From contig JABWCN010000023.1 in NCBI GenBank assembly GCA_013359135.1, forward strand, positions 26,012 through 88,991: DNA of 62,980 bases. Reading direction: 5' to 3'. Shown piece after piece: positions 5,467 to 51,259 of the stretch (position 1 is its first letter; every line of letters starts with the position of its first letter). The stretch comes from Pseudobdellovibrionaceae bacterium (GTDB lineage Bacteria; Bdellovibrionota; Bdellovibrionia; Bdellovibrionales; Bdellovibrionaceae). The notes beneath the pieces are model-generated. The model saw only the letters and a program-made list of their open reading frames with translations. It did not search any database and was not told the origin of the DNA. Made by a program: the position numbers and the translations under genes.

Positions 5467-7689
5467 TTAAACTTCTTCAAATCTTGGATCATTAGCACTT
5501 GGCACAGAATCTCCAGAAACAGAAACCTTGCTTACTGAAGACCCGGCAGGCTCTACTTTTTCCATAGGTAAAGGTTTAGCTACAACATTCAAAGTTTCTT
5601 TCTTTTTAAAAGCCAAAACTTTCTTATTTTCATGTTTCTCTTTTTTTGGTTTTTCTACTTTTTTGGGATTCACTTCTAATTTAGATGAATTTGAATTACT
5701 TCCTTGCACAACATGAACCAAAGCCTCTACTTGCTCTTTTAGTTCCTGTGATTTAGAATTAACCTCTAATGAAGAATTATTTGATTCTTGAGAAATTTTT
5801 GAATTTTCTGAAGTTGTTATGTCAAGCTGACCCATGGCTTTAGCTATTTCTTTAATTCCATTCGATTGTTCTTCTGAAGCCCTAGCAATTTCAGAAATCA
5901 TTTCATCAACCATTTTTACATTCTTCGCAATATCCTCTAATGCTTCATTACATTCACCAGCAGTTCTTTTACCTAGAGAAACTTTTTCTCTAGATCTAGA
6001 AATTAACTCTTCAACACGGCTTTCAGTTTCTTTAACAATTTGCGAGGTTTTTCGCTGACTTTCATCAAGTAGTGTTGAAATTTCTTTAGCTGCATTTCCA
6101 CTCATTTGTGCTAAATTTCCAACTTCTTCAGCTACGACAGCAAACCCTTTTCCATATTCACCAGCTCTAGCTGCTTCAACTGAGGCATTAAATGATAATA
6201 GTTTTGTTTGGAAAACAATCTCGTTGATTACTTTCGTTTTATTACCAATATCTGAAATGAGTTTCACAATTTCATTGATCTTTTCATTATTAACTTTCAT
6301 TTGATCTGCAATCAAATCATTAGACTGAGAAATTTCATCGATGGAATTTAACATGTTAACAACAGTCTGTTTTCCCTGATTGGTTGCTTGTAAACTATCA
6401 CCAGAAACAGCTTTTGACTGTTTAGAAGCTTCCGTGTTTTTCTCTACAGTAGCACTGATCTCATCAACAGCTGCCATCGTCTCCTGAATTGCACTTGCTT
6501 GCTCTGTCGATGCCTCGGAAAGTTTAGTGCTTTGAATTGTCATGTTTCCAGATGTAAAGCTTAGGCTCTCAGCGCTTTTATTTAATAAAATACTGATTTG
6601 AGCTAGTGATTTAGCAATCTGGTTCCCAAAGAAATAAGTCACCACAAATCCAAGTAACAATACCGTAGCAAATACCACGTAAAATAAGTTAAATAGCTTA
6701 TTTACTGCAGACATAAGCTCGGCCTTATCTTCTCTAACCATTACACCCCAGCCAATAGCATCTACGATTTTAGGCCCACTGACTTTAGCATAACCAACAA
6801 CTTGCAAGATCCCTTTTCTAACATGTGTTGCCTCTTTCACACCTTCAATATTATTAACCAAATCCATCGCTGGACCTAGTTTTTTTTCAGCAAGATTTAG
6901 TTTAAAAATGTCATGCTCTGTATCGTATTCAACTTCAGTTTTAAAGTTATTTTTAGCTGGGTCATAATCTAATAAAACCAGCCCATTTTTATCAATCAAC
7001 GTGATCTCAAGATTCTTGTAGCCAACTGCACTCAGTTCGGAATAAACTCTTTGAATTGACTCCTCTACCCATTTAGTCGTTGAGCGGTTTGTAATAACCC
7101 CAATGACTTCCCCTTTAGAGTCTTTTATTTGGGCTGTGAAACTAACCCCAATTTTATCTGTACCTTGAGCTAACTTTCTGATGGGATCGAATTGAAATTC
7201 TTCAACAAGAGTACCAGCAAAATTTTTACTTTTATCTTCTGTGAATTCACCTTTTATAGCTTTTTTAAACCATGAGGTACTGCTATAATTTAATTTTTCA
7301 AGAACTTCTGTTTTTAAAGGTTTTCCAGAAACATCTTTAGTGTTAGCAGCAACAAACTTCCCATTTTTATCAACTACTAAAATCACATCATAAAGACCAT
7401 ATAATGCCACATATTCATCTAAAACTTCTGACATTTTGTGTTTATCAAAACTTCTAACAGTTTCATTCAGAGCAAAAGCTTGAACATCTCCGTATCTTTC
7501 ATAAAATTGATCCTGAATATAAAAGCTAATCGTTTCTGAATTAGCTCTTATCGTATCATACTTACCCTGGACGTATTCGCCTTTGAAATTTTGAAATAAA
7601 AGAAAATTAATTGTACCTAATACTAAAACAATTAAATTCACTACAACTAAAATTTTTATCCTTAACGAAAACCTATTAAAAAACTTCAT
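5467..7689 (-). CDS. Methyl-accepting chemotaxis protein with dCache-like periplasmic sensor
   Basis: A 740-residue inner-membrane chemoreceptor. TM1 is near 11-29 and TM2 near 334-357. The roughly 300 residues between them look like a double-Cache (PAS-like) ligand-binding region (for example [18 protein letters not shown] and [16 protein letters not shown]). No clear HAMP domain is visible after TM2. The cytoplasmic signalling hairpin is conserved ([20 protein letters not shown]). A basic, low-complexity linker of about 80 residues ends in DPRFEEV, which resembles the aromatic C-terminal tethering peptides that recruit CheR/CheB, although the last residue is Val. It lies between cheW and cheR in the operon and has an AGGGGAAG ribosome-binding site directly before the ATG. 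Confidence 0.95.
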
Positions 7690-7718
7690 CTTCCCCTACT
7701 TCCTTACCTATTCTTTAT

Positions 7719-8192
7719 CTATGCCGCTGCTTTTGTTGCACTTTTGCTAATTACTGACTTATCTTCTTGAGAGAGTGTTTTAAAAATATCAAGTAACAAC
7801 ACTAAGTGTTCATTTTTTCTAAACACACCAGTGATGTACTCAGTACTTTTTGAACTTTCAATCATAGGCTTTTCTAGAATATCTGAATTTTTTATAGCTA
7901 AAACTGAAGTTACAGAATCAACAACCACACCTAAAAAGTGATTTTTTAGATCCAAGATAATCACCGATGTTTCTTCCGTGTTTTTTGTGTTGATAGAAAA
8001 TTTTTTTCGTAAATCTATTACCGAGATAACCTGTCCACGAAGGTTCATAATGCCTAAAAAATGAGGGGGAGTATGTGAAATAGGTGTTGTCTCTGGAACT
8101 GCTATGACCTCTTTTACTGATAACAAAGGAATCGCAAATTCCTCTTCACCAAGAGAAAAATTTAAATATCTATTGACTTCATCTTGACTCAT
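7719..8192 (-). CDS. cheW: CheW chemotaxis coupling protein
   Basis: A 157-residue single CheW domain that links chemoreceptors to CheA at the inner membrane. It shows the family pattern LNFSLGEEEFAIPLLSVKEV, TPPHFLGIMNLRGQVISVID and VDSVTSVLAI. The start codon overlaps the cheA stop in an ATGA at 8189-8192, so the two are translationally coupled. The MCP gene follows after 26 nt. Length and motifs are typical, and a short Ala-rich C-terminal tail follows the domain. Confidence 0.97.
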   Translation of the reverse strand: MSQDEVNRYLNFSLGEEEFAIPLLSVKEVIAVPETTPISHTPPHFLGIMNLRGQVISVIDLRKKFSINTKNTEETSVIILDLKNHFLGVVVDSVTSVLAIKNSDILEKPMIESSKSTEYITGVFRKNEHLVLLLDIFKTLSQEDKSVISKSATKAAA

Positions 8193-42645: not shown

Positions 42646-43386
42646 TTGAAAACCAATAGCTTATTGTTATTACTCTTTCTATCTTGCCTGTTTTCAAGTC
42701 TACACTTAAAAGCACAATCAGACTCGGCTGATGCCTTTGATCCTTTTTCTGATTACTCTGAATTTGATCAGGATTCAGATGAAGAAGCTGATATTAATTT
42801 TTTTAGAAATGGTAGGTTTCTGACCGTAGGTATTGCTACTGGCCCCAGACAATTCACAGGAAACATGGGAAAAACCTATGGTTCAGGTCTTAATTATGGT
42901 TTACAGATTGGATATTTCTTTGATCTCAAAATGGCCCTTGGCATTGGGATTATGACGGGAGATCACACCGTTGGATTTAGTACTCTTTCTGGAAATACAG
43001 TTAATAATTATTCAGGTAATGTTTCTTTTACTTCCATTAATTTTTGCCTAAAATATTTTTTAAACACTCAAAATGTCACTCGTGGTTTGGCCGATATTAA
43101 CCCCTATTTCCTTGGTGGCTTTACCCAATGGTATCGTACATACTCTTTGAGTGAGTTCTCCACTCAATCTCGTGAAAATGTTATGGGAGCTGACGTAGGA
43201 GCTGGAGTTGAAATACCAGTGATGAGACGAAAGGCTTATCTTGGATTGCAAGCAACCTACCATTACGTGAACTTTGCTGACGAAGGCAAAGATTTTTTAT
43301 ATAATGGTAGTTCTAATGAGCTTCTGGAAAGAAAGATTAATGGAGACATTATCGACTTTCTACTTGTTTTTGGCGTTAATTACTAA
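42646..43386 (+). CDS. Outer-membrane beta-barrel protein
   Basis: A 246-residue exported protein starting at TTG, with AAGGGGG 5 nt upstream. The signal peptide is LLLLLFLSCLFSSLHLKA. A very acidic stretch follows (DAFDPFSDYSEFDQDSDEEA). The remainder has alternating strands with aromatic girdles (RFLTVGIATGPRQF, NYGLQIGYFF, YLGLQATYHYV) and ends in VFGVNY, a C-terminal aromatic typical of BamA substrates. It is an OmpA/OmpW-size barrel, probably eight-stranded, of unknown function. Its last 27 bp overlap the convergent decarboxylase gene. Confidence 0.8.
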   Translation: MKTNSLLLLLFLSCLFSSLHLKAQSDSADAFDPFSDYSEFDQDSDEEADINFFRNGRFLTVGIATGPRQFTGNMGKTYGSGLNYGLQIGYFFDLKMALGIGIMTGDHTVGFSTLSGNTVNNYSGNVSFTSINFCLKYFLNTQNVTRGLADINPYFLGGFTQWYRTYSLSEFSTQSRENVMGADVGAGVEIPVMRRKAYLGLQATYHYVNFADEGKDFLYNGSSNELLERKINGDIIDFLLVFGVNY

Positions 43387-45138
43387 GGATATAGATTTCT
43401 CAATTTGCTTAACAAGTTCTAACTTGAAATTAACATGAAACTCTTTAGAATCAAAAAAAGGATTCATCAAGGTTATCCTAACTAACAACAAATCTTCGTT
43501 TGGCTTAATCTTCCCTAGCCCTCCCCATTGCGCAGCTAGTTTTTCCATATAGCTGCCATATTTTTTGAACTGTAATTTTGTCTGGGAAAAAATAAAAATT
43601 GGCTCTTTGTTTTTTTCAAAATACTTTAAAACTCTTGATGTTTTTTTATTAATAGCACTCAACGAATCATCCTGACTAGCTACACAAAAACAAAGAATAT
43701 TCAAATCGGTATCAGGAGCAAGGCGAACCATTGGTAACTTACGTTTAAGTAAAATTTCAATGTCTTTTTTAGTTCTCAAGGTACGTTTAATGATTCTCCC
43801 TAACCCATTCTGATTCAAAGGCATTGACTTTGCTGTCATCCACATTGCCGTGACCCCTGTGGCTGATCTTGAACCTTCCAATGTGAATGGGCCACGATCT
43901 GTTTTCTGATTGAAAGCCACATAGGGACCAAAAAAGGATTGTAAATAATAATTATTCTTATCAGAACATAAAAAAGTACCACTTGCATAGGGTACATAAG
44001 CCATTTTATGAGGATCTATAGTTAAAGATGTCGTATGTTTCAAACTATTTAAAGCCTTAAATGTTTCCGGACTAAATATTTTTTTATCTCTTTTTAAACT
44101 AGCAAAAAAACCGCCATAGGCAGCATCAACATGCAACCAAGCATTCTCAAGTTGGTGAGTTTTTAAAATACTTATCAAGCGATGCACAGGATCAACAAAT
44201 CCTAATTCCGTTGTACCTAAAACCGCTACTATTTGTTGAATTGGCCTTGATTCGTTTTTTAGTTTTTCTAACAAAAGTTCAAATTTTTTAGTATGAATTT
44301 TTCCCGTCTCATCAAGCTCAAGCTCAATAATTTGACTTTCATTCAATCCTATTAATGCGCACCCCTTAATCCAAGAGTAATGTTTGTGATTTGGTATCAA
44401 CACAACAGGATCATTCTCTTTCACATTAAAAATATCGGCAAAAAAACTTTTCTTCTGTTCATGAGATTTTAATTGTACCAACCCCTGCTCAAACTGACGA
44501 GCGATTTTCTTATCCTTCATTAATCTATAAAATCGGTCCCATCCTAAAGTGCTTGCTTGCCATAGATTAGCCTGAGTTTGATATAATTTCTTCTCAACAG
44601 CCAACATCAAAGCCCACCAATAAATTCTTTCCTTGGAGCGCACCAGTGACTCAAAATTCGCTACTGTTCCTCCTGAAGTAAAGTGCCCACAGTTACCACG
44701 ATAACCAATCATACGATTTAACATAATGACGGCTTCATTCTCAATTTCAATTCCAACCTTCGCTGACTCATGGGAAATAATATTTGGATTATGAAGTAAA
44801 CTTAAAAAATGCCCTAGAACTGCTGGCAGGTTCACCTCGGAAAACATGTGCCCTATGTATCTCGGAGAAAACTGAGGGACTTCTTTTTCATAACGTTTAG
44901 TGATATTTAAAAGATTCTTCTTCACAAGAGCTTGTTTTGTTGTGAAAGCACTTAATGATTGATCAAAGTGACTAATCGCAGCTCCATCATTAGGGTAGAG
45001 TTTTTTTCGCCACAGAGAGTATTCATTGGTGAGGCTTACCATCTGCTCTAGGAGCCAAGCTATGTTTTCAGCCTTTGGCCCCAAAAATAAACTTTTCATC
45101 GAAATTTCTGAAGGATAACATTTATCGAACTTATTCAT
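43360..45138 (-). CDS. PLP-dependent group II amino-acid decarboxylase
   Basis: I start at the ATG at 45138 (AGG 6 nt upstream); a GTG two codons earlier is possible. The 592-residue enzyme belongs to the glutamate/tyrosine/aromatic decarboxylase family. It shows GHFTSGGTVANFESLV, WLHVDAAYGGFFA (Asp for the pyridine N) and LTIDPHKMAYVPYASG with the PLP-binding Lys. The length fits bacterial tyrosine decarboxylase-like enzymes, but substrate choice is not readable. It is the last gene of the FHA/stator-like operon (34 nt gap), so its amine or lipid-like product may serve that system, or the linkage may be incidental. Confidence 0.9.
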   Translation of the reverse strand: MNKFDKCYPSEISMKSLFLGPKAENIAWLLEQMVSLTNEYSLWRKKLYPNDGAAISHFDQSLSAFTTKQALVKKNLLNITKRYEKEVPQFSPRYIGHMFSEVNLPAVLGHFLSLLHNPNIISHESAKVGIEIENEAVIMLNRMIGYRGNCGHFTSGGTVANFESLVRSKERIYWWALMLAVEKKLYQTQANLWQASTLGWDRFYRLMKDKKIARQFEQGLVQLKSHEQKKSFFADIFNVKENDPVVLIPNHKHYSWIKGCALIGLNESQIIELELDETGKIHTKKFELLLEKLKNESRPIQQIVAVLGTTELGFVDPVHRLISILKTHQLENAWLHVDAAYGGFFASLKRDKKIFSPETFKALNSLKHTTSLTIDPHKMAYVPYASGTFLCSDKNNYYLQSFFGPYVAFNQKTDRGPFTLEGSRSATGVTAMWMTAKSMPLNQNGLGRIIKRTLRTKKDIEILLKRKLPMVRLAPDTDLNILCFCVASQDDSLSAINKKTSRVLKYFEKNKEPIFIFSQTKLQFKKYGSYMEKLAAQWGGLGKIKPNEDLLLVRITLMNPFFDSKEFHVNFKLELVKQIEKSISLVINAKNK

Positions 45139-45172
45139 TTTCACCTAGATTCACTGAATTAACAGTATTAAA

Positions 45173-48100
45173 CTAGTTTGATTTTGAACTTTGCTCGATC
45201 TCCCCGTCAATTTGTTTTTGAAGATCCCCAGGTGTTTCTTTACCATCCTGAGGAGTTTTCGAATTCTTAGAAAGATAAAACTTTTCTAACTCATCACGAA
45301 AGAACTTTTTTTCAAATTTTCGAAATGATTCAAATTTCACATTAGAGCCCAAAATTTCAACAATTTTATTGGATGTCTCTTGCTCTTGTTCCCGCATTTT
45401 TGCAAGCCCCTGCTCCAAGAAATCAGTTCTAACCGTTGCTTGTTTTTCATGTAAAGTCTTAACTAAAGTCTGGGCCATAGCTACAATCTGAATAGACTTT
45501 TCTTCTTCCACTCTCCATGTTTTCAACAAGTAATCCATAGCAGCTTTACCCCATCTATCATGATAACCTGAATCTAAATACATCTCTACAAACTGATCGG
45601 TATAAAGCACTAAGTCAACGTAAGTGTCTTTAACTTCTGGAACACGCTCTGGAGTGAATTTCTTTTCCTCTAGTTCTTGCTTCACTTTTTCAGCTTGTTG
45701 AGCAATTTGATCAGTTACAGGATTTTGCTTATTTTGCACATAATGATAAACCGACTCCCCTAAGAAAAAAACTAACATCCCAAGTGCCATCCCCATTCCA
45801 ATACTAAGATTACGATCTCGCTTCATCTTGTTTACAACTTGATGAGCATCTTTTTGCATTTGATGAGAACCTTTTTCGTCATTTAATTTTAATGATGACG
45901 TGTGCTCATTAAAAACTGCCTGAATCTGATTTAAAATATTTCCCGTAACAGCAGTTAGCTGACCGGAAGGAATAACTTTAACAATCTCTCGCTCAACAGC
46001 TTGATGAACCTCTTTGGCTACAACATCTTTACTTTTGTAAAGCTCTGACAGCATTGTCTCTTTGAGTTTGTTAAATTTTTCAACTTCTAGAATCTTCATT
46101 TGATTCATTTGCTCTTGACTAACTTGCAACATCTTCTTTTGATCAGCATCTAACTGATTCTTATAATTTGCTTTCTGATTTTCGTACTCTTTTTTTAAAT
46201 TTTCAATTTTATTAACATGTTCATTGTGCTGATACTGCATTTCACCAAGTTTTTTTTCTACCGCCTTAGTATCTTGAATTAAAAACTCCTGCTGTTTTTG
46301 TAGTTTTTTATTATCCTCAGTGAGCAGCTTATTTTGCTCACTAACTTGATTAAATTCTTTAGATACTTCCTCGTAGTCATTCTTTAATTGAACATGCTTT
46401 TTATCTAATTCCTCAAAAATAGCAGTTAAATCTTTCTTTCGATTTTCTAAAAGATCGTTTTCGCTGATTAAATTTTTATTTCTCTCAAAAAATTCTTGCT
46501 GCTTTTCCTTAGTCCAAATCTCCATCTCACGATTTTTTGTTGCTTCAAGCTGACTTAACTCTGTATCCTTGGAACTCCACTCTGACTCTTTTCTTTTTTG
46601 TTCGCTTTCAATCCACAACATCGTTTCACTACGCTTTTGCGACTCAAAGTTTCTGAGTTGAACCTCTCTATCAGTCCACTCTTTTTCATTTTTATGTCTA
46701 GTCTCTTCAACCCATTTTTCTGTTGTCAATCTTAATTGACGAACCCATTCCTCAGTTTCAGCACGAAGGCTTCTATTCCAAGATTCAGTTTCAGCACGAA
46801 GATTTTTATCCCAAGAGGCTGTCTCTTCTCTTAGTTTTCTATCCCATTCCTGCGTCTCTTTTCTAGTTTTATCAGCATATTCTTGAGCTTCAAGTTTGAT
46901 GTTTTTAGACCAAGAAGTAACATCTTCTCTTGTCTTTACTTCCCACTGGTTAGTTCTTGCCTTTAGCTCATCGGCCCAAACTTGAGTGTCTCTTTTAACC
47001 TTTTCTTCATGGTCAAATACTTGCTTTTCTCGAGCTTCTAACTCTTGAAGTTTTAACTCTTTTTCTTTTGTTAATTTAGAAAAAAACTCTTCTTCTTTTT
47101 TCTTTAACATTCCATGAAATTCAGATAATTCTTTATTTTTTCGTTCTTCTTCAAGTTCAAGATCATTATAACGAGTGGCAATATCGCGCTCTGCAAATTC
47201 TTGTCGTTTTTTTAAACGCTCATCAAATTCAATTCTTTTTTCATCCAAAGATTTGTCAAAGGATTCCCCTCGCGCGTGAAGTTCTTCTTCTAGAAGCTTT
47301 CTTCGTTCTTGAGTCTCTCGCTCTATTTTAAATTGCAAAGTTCTTTTTTCTTCTTCAAGGGATTTGAGTTCATGATTGTACTTCTCAATATCTTTCTTCA
47401 AAAATGAAATATCATTCTTCAAAAGATCAATTTGTGATTGAGAATCGTGCTTTATTTTTTCAACTTCAAGTTCAGCCTGAGAAAGTAATTTTTCACGATC
47501 AACTCTTGCACTTTCAGCGGCATCTGAAAGTAACAACTGAACTTTCTTCTGACCTTCTCTTTCAGTTCTTTGAATAATGGCTTCTTTTTCAGATTCAGCA
47601 TCTTTTAATACCGATCTTTTTAATTCTTCAATTTCTTGTAAAGCTTTGTTTTTATTAGCATCCATTTCCTGCTGGGCAAAATCCCGCATCTCGGCTACTT
47701 TACCACGAGCATCTTCAACAATTTTCTGAGCCAAAATCTCGTTTTTCGATAATAAATCTTGCGATTTTACATGAGCCTCTTCGAGTTTATTCTTATAAAA
47801 AACTTCAGCTTCATTCTTAAACTCATTGGCTTTATTGTAAACATCTTGAACTGCTTTTTCTGCATCTTTTTGTGCATCATTAATAATGCCAACACCTTTT
47901 CTTTTAGCATCTTGTATAATTTGAGCCGATTGAAGACTTGCATTTGATAAAATATCATCTTGCTTTAAAAGCATCTCTTGCTCTATGGATGAAGCCTTCT
48001 GCTCTGCTATTTTAATTAACTTATCATGGCCTTCTTGGGCTAATTTAACGATTTTCTGAGCTTCCGAGTGGGCACCCTGAACCAACCTCATCATTGATTC

Positions 48101-48472
48101 TTTTTCATCTTTAGGCAGCTGGCTTTTTACTATTTCTTCTTTTTTAAAACATTTCTCTAATAAGTTAAATGATAAATAAATTTCTGATTTTCCAATCTTT
48201 ACTTTATCCCCAGGCTCTACACTCACCGTTTTTTGCGAAGGTATCTTTTGGTCATTAACAAAAGTACCATTAGCAGACCCCTGATCCTCTATCCAAATTT
48301 TGTTATGCTTCAAGGTAACAATAAGATGAATACGACTGATATTCTGATCACTAAATGCTAAAGTAGCATCTAAAGATCTTCCTACCGTAAAAGTACTATC
48401 GTCGACTATTTTGTAGTCGACGTTTTCTCCTTCTTGAATAGTAACAATAAAAACTTGAATAGGTTTAGCCAT
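45173..48472 (-). CDS. FHA-domain, giant coiled-coil, single-TM protein
   Basis: A 1099-residue protein. Residues 1-100 are an FHA phosphothreonine-binding domain with all key residues (FTVGRSLDATLA, NISRIHLIV, DQGSANGTFVND). Residues 120-860 are continuous charged coiled coil. Within it, residues 499-587 carry Trp (once Tyr) exactly every 11 residues. A membrane span lies at about 889-908 (LSIGMGMALGMLVFFLGESV), followed by a 190-residue C-terminal domain that is probably periplasmic. The FHA end is therefore cytoplasmic. It follows the MotA-like gene by 22 nt. I know of no described protein with this order. It may be a tail or scaffold for the channel proteins, controlled by Ser/Thr phosphorylation. 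Confidence 0.9.
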   Translation of the reverse strand: MAKPIQVFIVTIQEGENVDYKIVDDSTFTVGRSLDATLAFSDQNISRIHLIVTLKHNKIWIEDQGSANGTFVNDQKIPSQKTVSVEPGDKVKIGKSEIYLSFNLLEKCFKKEEIVKSQLPKDEKESMMRLVQGAHSEAQKIVKLAQEGHDKLIKIAEQKASSIEQEMLLKQDDILSNASLQSAQIIQDAKRKGVGIINDAQKDAEKAVQDVYNKANEFKNEAEVFYKNKLEEAHVKSQDLLSKNEILAQKIVEDARGKVAEMRDFAQQEMDANKNKALQEIEELKRSVLKDAESEKEAIIQRTEREGQKKVQLLLSDAAESARVDREKLLSQAELEVEKIKHDSQSQIDLLKNDISFLKKDIEKYNHELKSLEEEKRTLQFKIERETQERRKLLEEELHARGESFDKSLDEKRIEFDERLKKRQEFAERDIATRYNDLELEEERKNKELSEFHGMLKKKEEEFFSKLTKEKELKLQELEAREKQVFDHEEKVKRDTQVWADELKARTNQWEVKTREDVTSWSKNIKLEAQEYADKTRKETQEWDRKLREETASWDKNLRAETESWNRSLRAETEEWVRQLRLTTEKWVEETRHKNEKEWTDREVQLRNFESQKRSETMLWIESEQKRKESEWSSKDTELSQLEATKNREMEIWTKEKQQEFFERNKNLISENDLLENRKKDLTAIFEELDKKHVQLKNDYEEVSKEFNQVSEQNKLLTEDNKKLQKQQEFLIQDTKAVEKKLGEMQYQHNEHVNKIENLKKEYENQKANYKNQLDADQKKMLQVSQEQMNQMKILEVEKFNKLKETMLSELYKSKDVVAKEVHQAVEREIVKVIPSGQLTAVTGNILNQIQAVFNEHTSSLKLNDEKGSHQMQKDAHQVVNKMKRDRNLSIGMGMALGMLVFFLGESVYHYVQNKQNPVTDQIAQQAEKVKQELEEKKFTPERVPEVKDTYVDLVLYTDQFVEMYLDSGYHDRWGKAAMDYLLKTWRVEEEKSIQIVAMAQTLVKTLHEKQATVRTDFLEQGLAKMREQEQETSNKIVEILGSNVKFESFRKFEKKFFRDELEKFYLSKNSKTPQDGKETPGDLQKQIDGEIEQSSKSN
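46712..46978 (-). repeat. Hendecad (11-residue) Trp repeat region in the FHA coiled-coil gene
   Basis: Residues 499-587 have aromatic residues at 499, 510, 521, 532 (Tyr), 543, 554, 565, 576 and 587, all exactly 11 apart, in units like TESWNRSLRAE. In DNA this is a degenerate 33-bp repeat with recurring TTCAGCACGAAG blocks. Confidence 0.92.
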
Positions 48473-48494
48473 ATAGCAACTTCCTAAAATTTAA

Positions 48495-49427
48495 TTATGA
48501 AACTTTAACTTTTTTAATTTCATCAAACTCACGAGTTCTTTGGCCTTTAGCGAGCTCAAGCCTGATAGACTCTTCAGCTAAAGCCTCTTGAGGATCCTTA
48601 TGTTCGTCAAAGGGTTTTTCATTGGAAGGATACTCGTTATTATCGCTACGATACCAAAGTAAATCCAAAGAGCTTTCAAATCTATCAATCATCGAAACAA
48701 AAACTCTATCTGGAGAAAATGTCACATTTATAAAATTCAGCATCAACGAAAAGGTGATTCCGAAAATTGATGATGACATGGCATATGAAATCTCAAACAA
48801 AAAACGATCCATGACGTTCTTTGTACTATCCATATCTTGTAGATTCATTCCACCAAGTTCAGGTAACCCTTTAGCAATACCAATAAAAGTTCCAAGAATT
48901 CCAGCTACGACAAACAAACCTGGCAAAATAGAAACTATGTCATTCAAACTTGAAATAGGAAACACACCAAATACCCTATTAAAACATGGATTGTGATGAA
49001 ATGTGGCTTTTGTGATATGTAAAAGTTTTGGAGTGTCTTGTGTCCACTTTAAAAATTTTAGTTGTTTAATAATGTCTTTAACAAGCCACGCACAACCTTG
49101 CTTAACCAAAAACACTCTATCACTCCAACCCATTACTTTATCAGTACGTCTACGAAGCATACGATCTCTTAAATCAAAAACTTCATAATAGGTCTTCTCT
49201 AGCATTTTTTTTGACAAAACATAAAAAGACACATTTCCCGGAGTGCTCCCAGGCTTTTCAGTTTCCATAAAGTGGGAGACTCGTTTTTCAAACTCTCTAG
49301 AAAACCATTCGTGACGCTTCACTGTGTACCAGATCATCACTCTCAAAAAAGCTCCCACACAAAACACAGCACCCATAAAGTAAGGAAGTGAGAGTATAAA
49401 ATATTCCGTAAAAGTTTTTGCTGCCAT
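48495..49427 (-). CDS. MotA/TolQ/ExbB-family (ZorA-like) proton-channel subunit
   Basis: The ATG at 49427 lies 8 nt after AGGAG and is preferred over a TTG two codons upstream. The 310-residue protein has TM1 at about 10-32, a cytoplasmic region of 130 residues, then paired segments at about 163-187 (ISILPGLFVVAGILGTFIGI-like; it contains VAGILGTFIGIAKGLPEL) and 208-235 (FLFEISYAMSSSIFGITFSL). This is the MotA/TolQ/ExbB channel pattern. It differs from flagellar MotA in having only about three spans and no charged torque loop that I can recognise. It stands between a MotB/ZorB-like gene (18 nt) and the FHA gene (22 nt). Confidence 0.85.
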   Translation of the reverse strand: MAAKTFTEYFILSLPYFMGAVFCVGAFLRVMIWYTVKRHEWFSREFEKRVSHFMETEKPGSTPGNVSFYVLSKKMLEKTYYEVFDLRDRMLRRRTDKVMGWSDRVFLVKQGCAWLVKDIIKQLKFLKWTQDTPKLLHITKATFHHNPCFNRVFGVFPISSLNDIVSILPGLFVVAGILGTFIGIAKGLPELGGMNLQDMDSTKNVMDRFLFEISYAMSSSIFGITFSLMLNFINVTFSPDRVFVSMIDRFESSLDLLWYRSDNNEYPSNEKPFDEHKDPQEALAEESIRLELAKGQRTREFDEIKKVKVS

Positions 49428-49444
49428 ATCCAAATCTCCTTTAA

Positions 49445-51106
49445 TTATTTTTTTCCATCCATACCGAAACGAATAATCACACGTTGGGATTTTTTACAGT
49501 CGTTGATTGAACAAAAATCCTTTCCTTGTGGTACGTTTTTCACTTTCATGACCTCTAAAAAGCTACGTCCAGAGACTTTCATCACAGGGAACATATCTTT
49601 TTGGTGATCAAATTCCATACTTTTATCATCGATGATGTGATTAAATATGGACTTTGCACGTTGATAACTTAAATCCATGTTGTACTTTAAAGCCTGTTTA
49701 TCTTTTCTTGCTGATGAATTAGGATCTACGTACTTACCTTTGTAAGTTGGAGATGCAAATCCAACAATTTCTACAGCTGAAATCTTATCTTTAACCTTAT
49801 TATTTCCAAATAATGACTTGGCATACACTGGCATAGCCTTTTCAAGAATTGCCTTCATATCACCATTGAGTTTAGACGACCCTGTTTCAAAGTAAGAATC
49901 ACCAAAATCCAGCATCACTTCACCTGTCTGCAAATCAATATCAGCTTTGATTCCAGCTTTTTCAAATCCTTTTTTAATTTCTTTTGCTACATCTTTTCTT
50001 AAGTCTCTTTCCTCAAGTGCTTTCTTTAGTTCTTTATCCTTACTGTGCAGATCATTTGAAAGACCAGCTATACGATCTTGCATCTCTTTTTCTTTTTGAG
50101 CAGCTCTGGCTTTAAACTCAGCTTCTTTTTTGGCTCGTTCAGCAGCCCCTAATTTGTGTTTACCTAGTTCATCATCAAAAGCCTTACGATCTCTTTCTTT
50201 TTCAAGAGCATATTGCTTTTTTAAATCTCCAATCTTCTGATTGTATTCGCCTTCTACATTATTCAATTTATTTTTTAAAGCAGAAGCCTCACCCGCTTTA
50301 TTAGACAACTCAGCTTGAGTTTGAGCTAGATCTGTTGATAGTTTTCCTAATTTCTGCTGAGTCTGATTGAGTTCTTGTTGGTAGCTCTGATTAGCCTCAT
50401 TTAACTGATCAATTTTTGACTGATTATCTTGTTTAAGCTGAGCCATTCTCTTTTCATAGGCTTGCTTTGTAATTTCTTTATTCTTCAAAGCTTCCTTAAG
50501 GGCATCCATTTTATTTTCTAAGTTTTCTTGAATCTTAGCAATTTTAACTTCGCCTTCTTCAATCAATTTCTTTTTGTTCTCAACATCTTGATTGAGCTTA
50601 GAAATTTGTTCGTCTTGAGAGTCGATAGTATCATCTTGTTCTTCGATAATATCATCACGTTTTTTAATTTTTGTTTTAGATAATACGTTTGCATTAATCA
50701 TATTACGTACCATCTGTTGGTACTGATTCAGTGCTTGTTCTTTTTTTGAGTTTTCATTAAAAGCCTGTCTCAACTTTTCTTTTTCATCCTTGGCTTCTTC
50801 TTTAAGAAGAACCAATTTATCCATAAGTTCTTGGTATGATTTCTCTTCTGAAGAATCAGCTTCTTTTTTAAGATAATCTTTCTTAATAGAATCATACATT
50901 TTAAGCTGAGCTTTTAGATCTTGAACTTCCATTTTTAAATTCTGATTATCTACTTGTTGTTTCATCCCGTTAGTCCCCGTACGCAGCGAAGACGTTACAT
51001 AAAGTAAAAGAAAAATAGTTGACAATCCCAGGAATAAATCAGAATAGGAAGTCCAAAAGTGGCCGTCATCACTGTGATTCTTATGTTTATCGTAATTAAA
51101 TGACAT
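49445..51106 (-). CDS. MotB/ZorB-like stator subunit with long coiled coil and OmpA domain
   Basis: I start at the ATG at 51106, which has GAGGA 5 nt upstream. The 553-residue protein has a single N-terminal span (YSDLFLGLSTIFLLLYV) with Asp23 at its start, the position of the proton-carrying Asp of MotB/ZorB. About 330 residues of periplasmic coiled coil follow. The OmpA/MotB peptidoglycan-binding domain comes last (VMLDFGDSYFETGSSKL, IVGFASPTYKG, NMDLSYQRAKSIFNHII). Flagellar MotB is about 300 residues with no such coil. It is the first gene of the operon, divergent from the haem-barrel gene at 51260. Confidence 0.88.
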   Translation of the reverse strand: MSFNYDKHKNHSDDGHFWTSYSDLFLGLSTIFLLLYVTSSLRTGTNGMKQQVDNQNLKMEVQDLKAQLKMYDSIKKDYLKKEADSSEEKSYQELMDKLVLLKEEAKDEKEKLRQAFNENSKKEQALNQYQQMVRNMINANVLSKTKIKKRDDIIEEQDDTIDSQDEQISKLNQDVENKKKLIEEGEVKIAKIQENLENKMDALKEALKNKEITKQAYEKRMAQLKQDNQSKIDQLNEANQSYQQELNQTQQKLGKLSTDLAQTQAELSNKAGEASALKNKLNNVEGEYNQKIGDLKKQYALEKERDRKAFDDELGKHKLGAAERAKKEAEFKARAAQKEKEMQDRIAGLSNDLHSKDKELKKALEERDLRKDVAKEIKKGFEKAGIKADIDLQTGEVMLDFGDSYFETGSSKLNGDMKAILEKAMPVYAKSLFGNNKVKDKISAVEIVGFASPTYKGKYVDPNSSARKDKQALKYNMDLSYQRAKSIFNHIIDDKSMEFDHQKDMFPVMKVSGRSFLEVMKVKNVPQGKDFCSINDCKKSQRVIIRFGMDGKK

Positions 51107-51259
51107 TTTATCCTCGTTTTTTTTCTTCTGCATTTATTTCGATCAAATGCGACTTTTACTAAATAGCACTCTTACATTTTAAAAAAAAATTCGACCTAGG
51201 ACTTGTTTTTTTAATAACTTCTTCTTGATTTTAGTCTAGCTTTGAAAAAAGATATTCAC

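Follow-up and report, generated by a model that had tools for sequence, protein, structure and literature searches.

What kind of machine is encoded where the genes for a MotB/ZorB-like and a MotA/ZorA-like protein are followed by that of a large FHA protein? This question is raised by a locus of a Pseudobdellovibrionaceae bacterium (assembly GCA_013359135.1, contig JABWCN010000023.1, positions 26,012-88,991 of the forward strand), a stretch of 62,980 nt that was analysed as a whole and is called the window here. The original prediction described four minus-strand open reading frames as parts of an ion-driven envelope machine. All four frames are indeed present (Table 1) and tightly packed, with gaps of ~11-17 bp between the subunits that we call B and A, 22 bp between A and the FHA protein F, and 28 bp, the largest, between F and a decarboxylase gene. 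The open frame of B spans 49445-51133, where the ATG at 51106 agrees with the start in its family, while A can start from a TTG at 49433 or an alternative ATG at 49427. A promoter scan came out at chance level. In our judgement there is an even chance that B-A-F is a wall-anchored, ion-driven inner-membrane motor of the MotAB/ZorAB type, in which an exchangeable third subunit would act as a signal-reading coupler.

Table 1. Features of the operon, in positions of the window
Feature	Position	Strand	Description
B subunit, MotB/ZorB-like	49445..51106	-	TM with Asp near the N-terminus, then a long coiled hairpin (predicted) and an OmpA-type domain in which C-x4-C is invariant
TM aspartate codon of B	51038..51040	-	within SYSDLFL; residue 32 when B is read as 562 aa
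A subunit, MotA/TolQ/ZorA-like pore	48495..49433	-	three TM, ~70 residues past the last of them; lacks a long tail
C-terminal segment FDEHKDPQEALAE of A	48573..48611	-	kept in the FHA-gene clade, absent outside that clade
F subunit	45173..48472	-	FHA domain and long coil, single TM, then a conserved helical domain at the C-terminus (predicted periplasmic)
FHA domain of F	48191..48388	-	residues 29-94; conserved GR, SRxH and GT positions
C-terminal domain of F	45263..45748	-	~160 residues; no Pfam family or significant PDB fold match
PLP-dependent decarboxylase	43360..45144	-	adjoins the operon; outside the conserved unit

Conservation of the gene unit

The neighbourhood of these genes in relatives had been named beforehand as a possible refutation, and it did not refute the unit. 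In 134/134 loci where the contig allowed this to be seen, B immediately precedes A, and F is usually next. In the sample of the class the same holds for 36/36 loci, with F following in 33 of these. From a scan of a collection of named genomes, the best 80 of 180 relatives were kept; of these, 78 have B before A, the contig ending in the other two, and 74 have F after A, the contig ending in four and two being other exceptions; a few odd titles in this collection (Streptomyces, Thioalkalivibrio, Actinomycetota) are probably misnamed MAGs. A is present in 181 of the 369 genomes of the phylum sample. Within the class, A occurs in 85/144 genomes and the C-terminal domain of F in 82/144, and 80 of the 87 genomes with either have both, although these counts come from related genomes and are hence not independent. 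The exceptions are confined to two genera, with A alone in five genomes of g31 and the F domain alone in two of g53. B-A-F is thus a real conserved unit, beyond chance. The operon is also found in Bdellovibrio bacteriovorus (L078, strain kdesi). Several complete genomes in genera g4 and g18 are without both A and F, and the unit is therefore dispensable. In one genome of g4 (G023; loci L183 and L184), the F gene lies ~0.9 Mb away from B-A.

Two other parts of the predicted machine fared less well. The fourth gene was correctly recognised as a decarboxylase (Pyridoxal_deC, 2.8e-25 in Pfam), but it adjoins the operon only in the window and in the near relative L031, and we reject it as a component of the machine. 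It is related to tyrosine decarboxylases, scoring 209 of 905 bits, which is far under the equivalog cut-off. The suggested link of F to a Ser/Thr kinase was not borne out at this locus: the operon holds no kinase gene, and the three Pkinase-like matches in the genome, which could supply the phosphate, all lie elsewhere. What stands of the predicted ion-driven envelope machine is the ZorAB/MotAB-type pair with an FHA protein as third gene. No flagellar genes were recognised next to the operon of the window. In L213 (G349:C174), a locus that has no F, a flagellin-like gene (6901-7761) is found ~0.6 kb after A.

The A and B subunits

Both the sequence and the predicted fold of B place it in the MotB/ZorB branch. 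Hydropathy gives a single TM, of which the aspartate is invariant in an alignment of 35 sequences. Pfam recognises MotB_plug and OmpA, both as weak matches, while the ZorB models of PADLOC match B more clearly (2e-29 at best). In a profile alignment, the FW-SY-DL segment near the N-terminus is matched to ZorB chain 8qyd_F at the TM aspartate, and the OmpA domain aligns to ZorB as well. When the predicted structure was compared with the PDB, three ZorB entries ranked at the top (Z 16.9, 15.8 and 15.0), with MotS, PomB and MotB below them (Z 12-14); it should be noted that this model is of middling confidence, with a mean pLDDT of 74 and a pTM of 0.45. Between the TM and the OmpA-type domain, the model has two long helices (85-208 and 214-316) that resemble antiparallel coiled coils such as those of PI3K iSH2 and Smc. 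Because of these matches, the helices point to a hairpin of ~18 nm, a length estimated from the helices themselves. In the OmpA-type domain, which sequence and fold both support, the wall-binding motif N..LS..RA has invariant N, L, S and R residues, and the usual aspartate is replaced (GFASPT); the domain also carries an invariant pair of cysteines, and binding to the wall itself is predicted. As such, the aspartate-bearing TM, long coil and OmpA domain that had been claimed for the first gene are all present.

A counts 312 aa, with three TM by hydropathy, the last of which ends near residue 240. The remaining ~70 residues leave no room for the long tail typical of ZorA, in agreement with the tailless MotA/ZorA-like pore that was proposed for the second gene. 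Pfam MotA_ExbB reaches an E-value of only 0.26 on A, below the cut-off, whereas the same genome holds 13 other pores of this family above it. PADLOC and NCBIfam models of ZorA do match A, yet under the NCBIfam cut-offs. Moreover, when a profile of 35 A sequences was searched against the PDB, all matches below 1e-3 were ZorA chains, to which A aligns across TM3 and TM4, with LPG..GI.GTF as the aligned segment of TM3. With the TM3-TM4 core in A and the TM aspartate in B, the pair belongs to the ion-driven motor superfamily (MotAB/TolQR/ZorAB), and by profile and modelled fold it is nearest to ZorA/ZorB, ahead of flagellar MotAB.

Two observations on the C-terminus of A may be recorded here. In all clades, A subunits tend to end in two small residues near a Lys or Arg (e.g. 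KAS, KAA), as seen in 73/79 sequences (48498-48506 in the window; loci L031-L244) compared to 4.4% of 913 other ORFs of the same loci, and many of the cyclic-nucleotide-binding third proteins described below share this ending; a C-terminal recognition signal is possible. In L178 (G319:C28), the open frame that contains an A-type pore runs to 819 aa, its long extension at the C-terminus being either a tail fused to the pore or an effect of the reading frame.

The third subunit and its possible role

The third gene was expected to encode an FHA/coil/TM protein of 1099 residues, and such a protein was found, conserved at this position. In the window, its FHA domain is matched at 4.8e-16 (Pfam) and its single TM lies at about residues 890-908 by hydropathy. 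Among 89 proteins of the family, a single TM is seen in 81 and a more positive flank on its N-terminal side in 80. Following the positive-inside rule, the FHA domain and coil are therefore predicted to be cytoplasmic, and the C-terminal domain periplasmic. The length of the coil is highly variable among relatives. An FHA domain was detected in 81/89 proteins, and the eight without a recognisable one imply that reading of phosphorylated residues is not obligatory. The C-terminal domain is modelled as helical with a mean pLDDT of 90. It belongs to no Pfam family and has no significant Foldseek match in the PDB (best E 1.4), and its VIA-align scores (Z up to 6.2) are within the chance range for helical bundles, which is not proof of a new fold. 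In genus g53 (L179-L182), orphan proteins of ~480-545 aa combine an FHA domain with the F-type C-terminal domain, with A and B not adjoining; in L179, the gene after it resembles a glycosyltransferase by eye.

F is not the only protein to follow A. In the tree of A, the F-bearing clade has two-gene B-A loci without F outside it, several lineages carrying A and B in this way, and a more distant sister clade (L231-L244) where A is followed by the gene of a ~150-aa protein with a cNMP_binding domain (1.6e-18). Since a signal-reading protein occupies the same place in two clades, gene position suggests that the third gene serves as signal input or output.

So how would such a motor work? By homology, five A and two B subunits would form the pore, and ion flow past the aspartate of B would move A around B, which is predicted to be held to the cell wall by the OmpA-type domain at the end of its long periplasmic coil. 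F is predicted to have a single membrane span that separates a cytoplasmic FHA head and coil from a periplasmic helical domain, and most likely would dock on the A ring, replacing the long cytoplasmic tail that ZorA itself carries. The FHA head might then read phosphothreonine on a partner protein and in this way switch the motor or link it to its load. In the sister clade, the cyclic-nucleotide-binding protein may act as signal input or output from the same gene position. The lineages that carry A and B without F, the distant F gene of G023 and the F proteins that lack a recognisable FHA domain weigh against this picture. More tentatively, and with less conviction than we have for the motor itself, Bdellovibrionota could possess a family of signal-gated rotary motors, in which a ZorAB-like core is combined with different readers (a phosphothreonine-reading FHA protein or a cyclic nucleotide-binding one), so that a kinase or second messenger would switch mechanical work at the cell wall.

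An FHA partner could also mean that B-A-F drives gliding, adhesion or predation much as Agl-Glt does and that F corresponds to GltG, which we consider conceivable but somewhat improbable. GltG, the FHA partner of the TolQ-type AglR in Agl-Glt gliding, is a bitopic protein of the same plan (FHA, TM, periplasmic domain) that contacts the pore subunit, the AglR-GltG interaction having been reported in a study in which gliding of Bdellovibrio is noted as well (PMC3169522). However, GltG ends in TonB_C, for which F has no match, no glt-type genes were recognised beside F, and the TolR-type partners and large glt gene set of Agl-Glt are unlike B-A-F. The pore A is furthermore closer to ZorA than to TolQ, the unit is patchily absent in g4 and g18, and a Tn-seq predation screen of Bdellovibrio does not name the B-A-F genes in its main text, as far as they could be matched without locus tags. 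A named Agl-type system with a described FHA partner, which the original prediction listed among its possible refutations, exists in the GltG/AglR pair, yet B-A-F differs in its domains: such a partner has a precedent in GltG, but to judge from its sequences B-A-F is not Agl-Glt.

A different possibility, which we find unlikely, is that B and A make up a two-subunit motor, and that F, encoded next to them, is a scaffold with a separate function. This would fit the B-A loci without F, the separation of F from B-A in G023 and the orphan F-type proteins of g53. It would fit less well with the joint presence of A and F in most class genomes that have either, and with a conserved segment at the C-terminus of A (FDEHxDPxEALAE) that marks the F clade, being conserved together with F and missing outside this clade. 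On the tree, gain or loss of this segment and of F amounts to one change, and thus to one independent pair, so that it provides no replicated test of docking or co-evolution; several independent co-losses were considered and rejected, as the tree requires a single change only. In this comparison, the motif was scored present by hand in four loci where the search pattern had missed or misread it, L054, L056 and L060 (clear) and L065 (degenerate), L184 was scored as having F, which lies elsewhere in its genome, and L223 was not counted. The segment marks a clade and may be a docking site for F.

Comparison with known systems

By sequence, the closest known counterpart of B-A-F is the ZorA/ZorB motor of Zorya types I and II (PMC11890865). 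The likeness lies in the TM3-TM4 sequence of the pore, the aspartate segment of the ZorB TM and the OmpA-type domain. In contrast to Zorya, A lacks the long cytoplasmic tail, B has an inserted long coil, the FHA-coil-TM protein is separate and the gene order is B-A. That the locus is itself a Zorya variant, an anti-phage system with F as the detached tail and its effectors encoded elsewhere, would fit with ZorA and ZorB being the nearest counterparts of A and B in profile and fold comparisons, but is in our view quite unlikely. As predicted, no ZorC, ZorD or ZorE was found nearby, PADLOC matching neither F, the decarboxylase nor any of ten flanking proteins. The NCBIfam cut-offs for Zorya are missed by far (ZorA_2 46 bits against 100, ZorB2 33.5 against 400), even though homology under the cut-off is clear. 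Unlike a defence island, the unit is conserved phylum-wide with hardly any mobile relatives: the one plasmid relative of A is itself a ZorA, and no phage relative of B was found. The unit probably serves the cell envelope rather than phage defence.

Flagellar MotAB and PomAB share with this pair the aspartate-bearing TM and the OmpA-type wall-binding domain in B, and a 5:2 pore would be expected in both. They differ in that A has three TM where MotA has four, in the extra subunit, in fold scores for B that are lower than those of ZorB, and in gene order, as the survey of PMC12505986 places B after A. Although the pore superfamily is in common, these differences, the first rank of ZorAB by profile and fold, and the 13 better-matching pores of the same genome make it very improbable that the pair is simply a misread flagellar stator or Tol/Exb system. 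SiiAB of type I secretion (PMC12204202) offers another example of a MotAB-type pair with a non-flagellar task in the envelope, likened here by description and not by sequence.

The open-licence literature yielded no paper on the B-A-F operon, and a three-gene motor with an FHA protein in place of the Zorya tail is apparently undescribed. If our reading as a motor is true, the core of the Zorya defence motor has close chromosomal relatives across a phylum, equipped with signal-reading third subunits, which would bear both on the origin of Zorya and on how such motors are switched.
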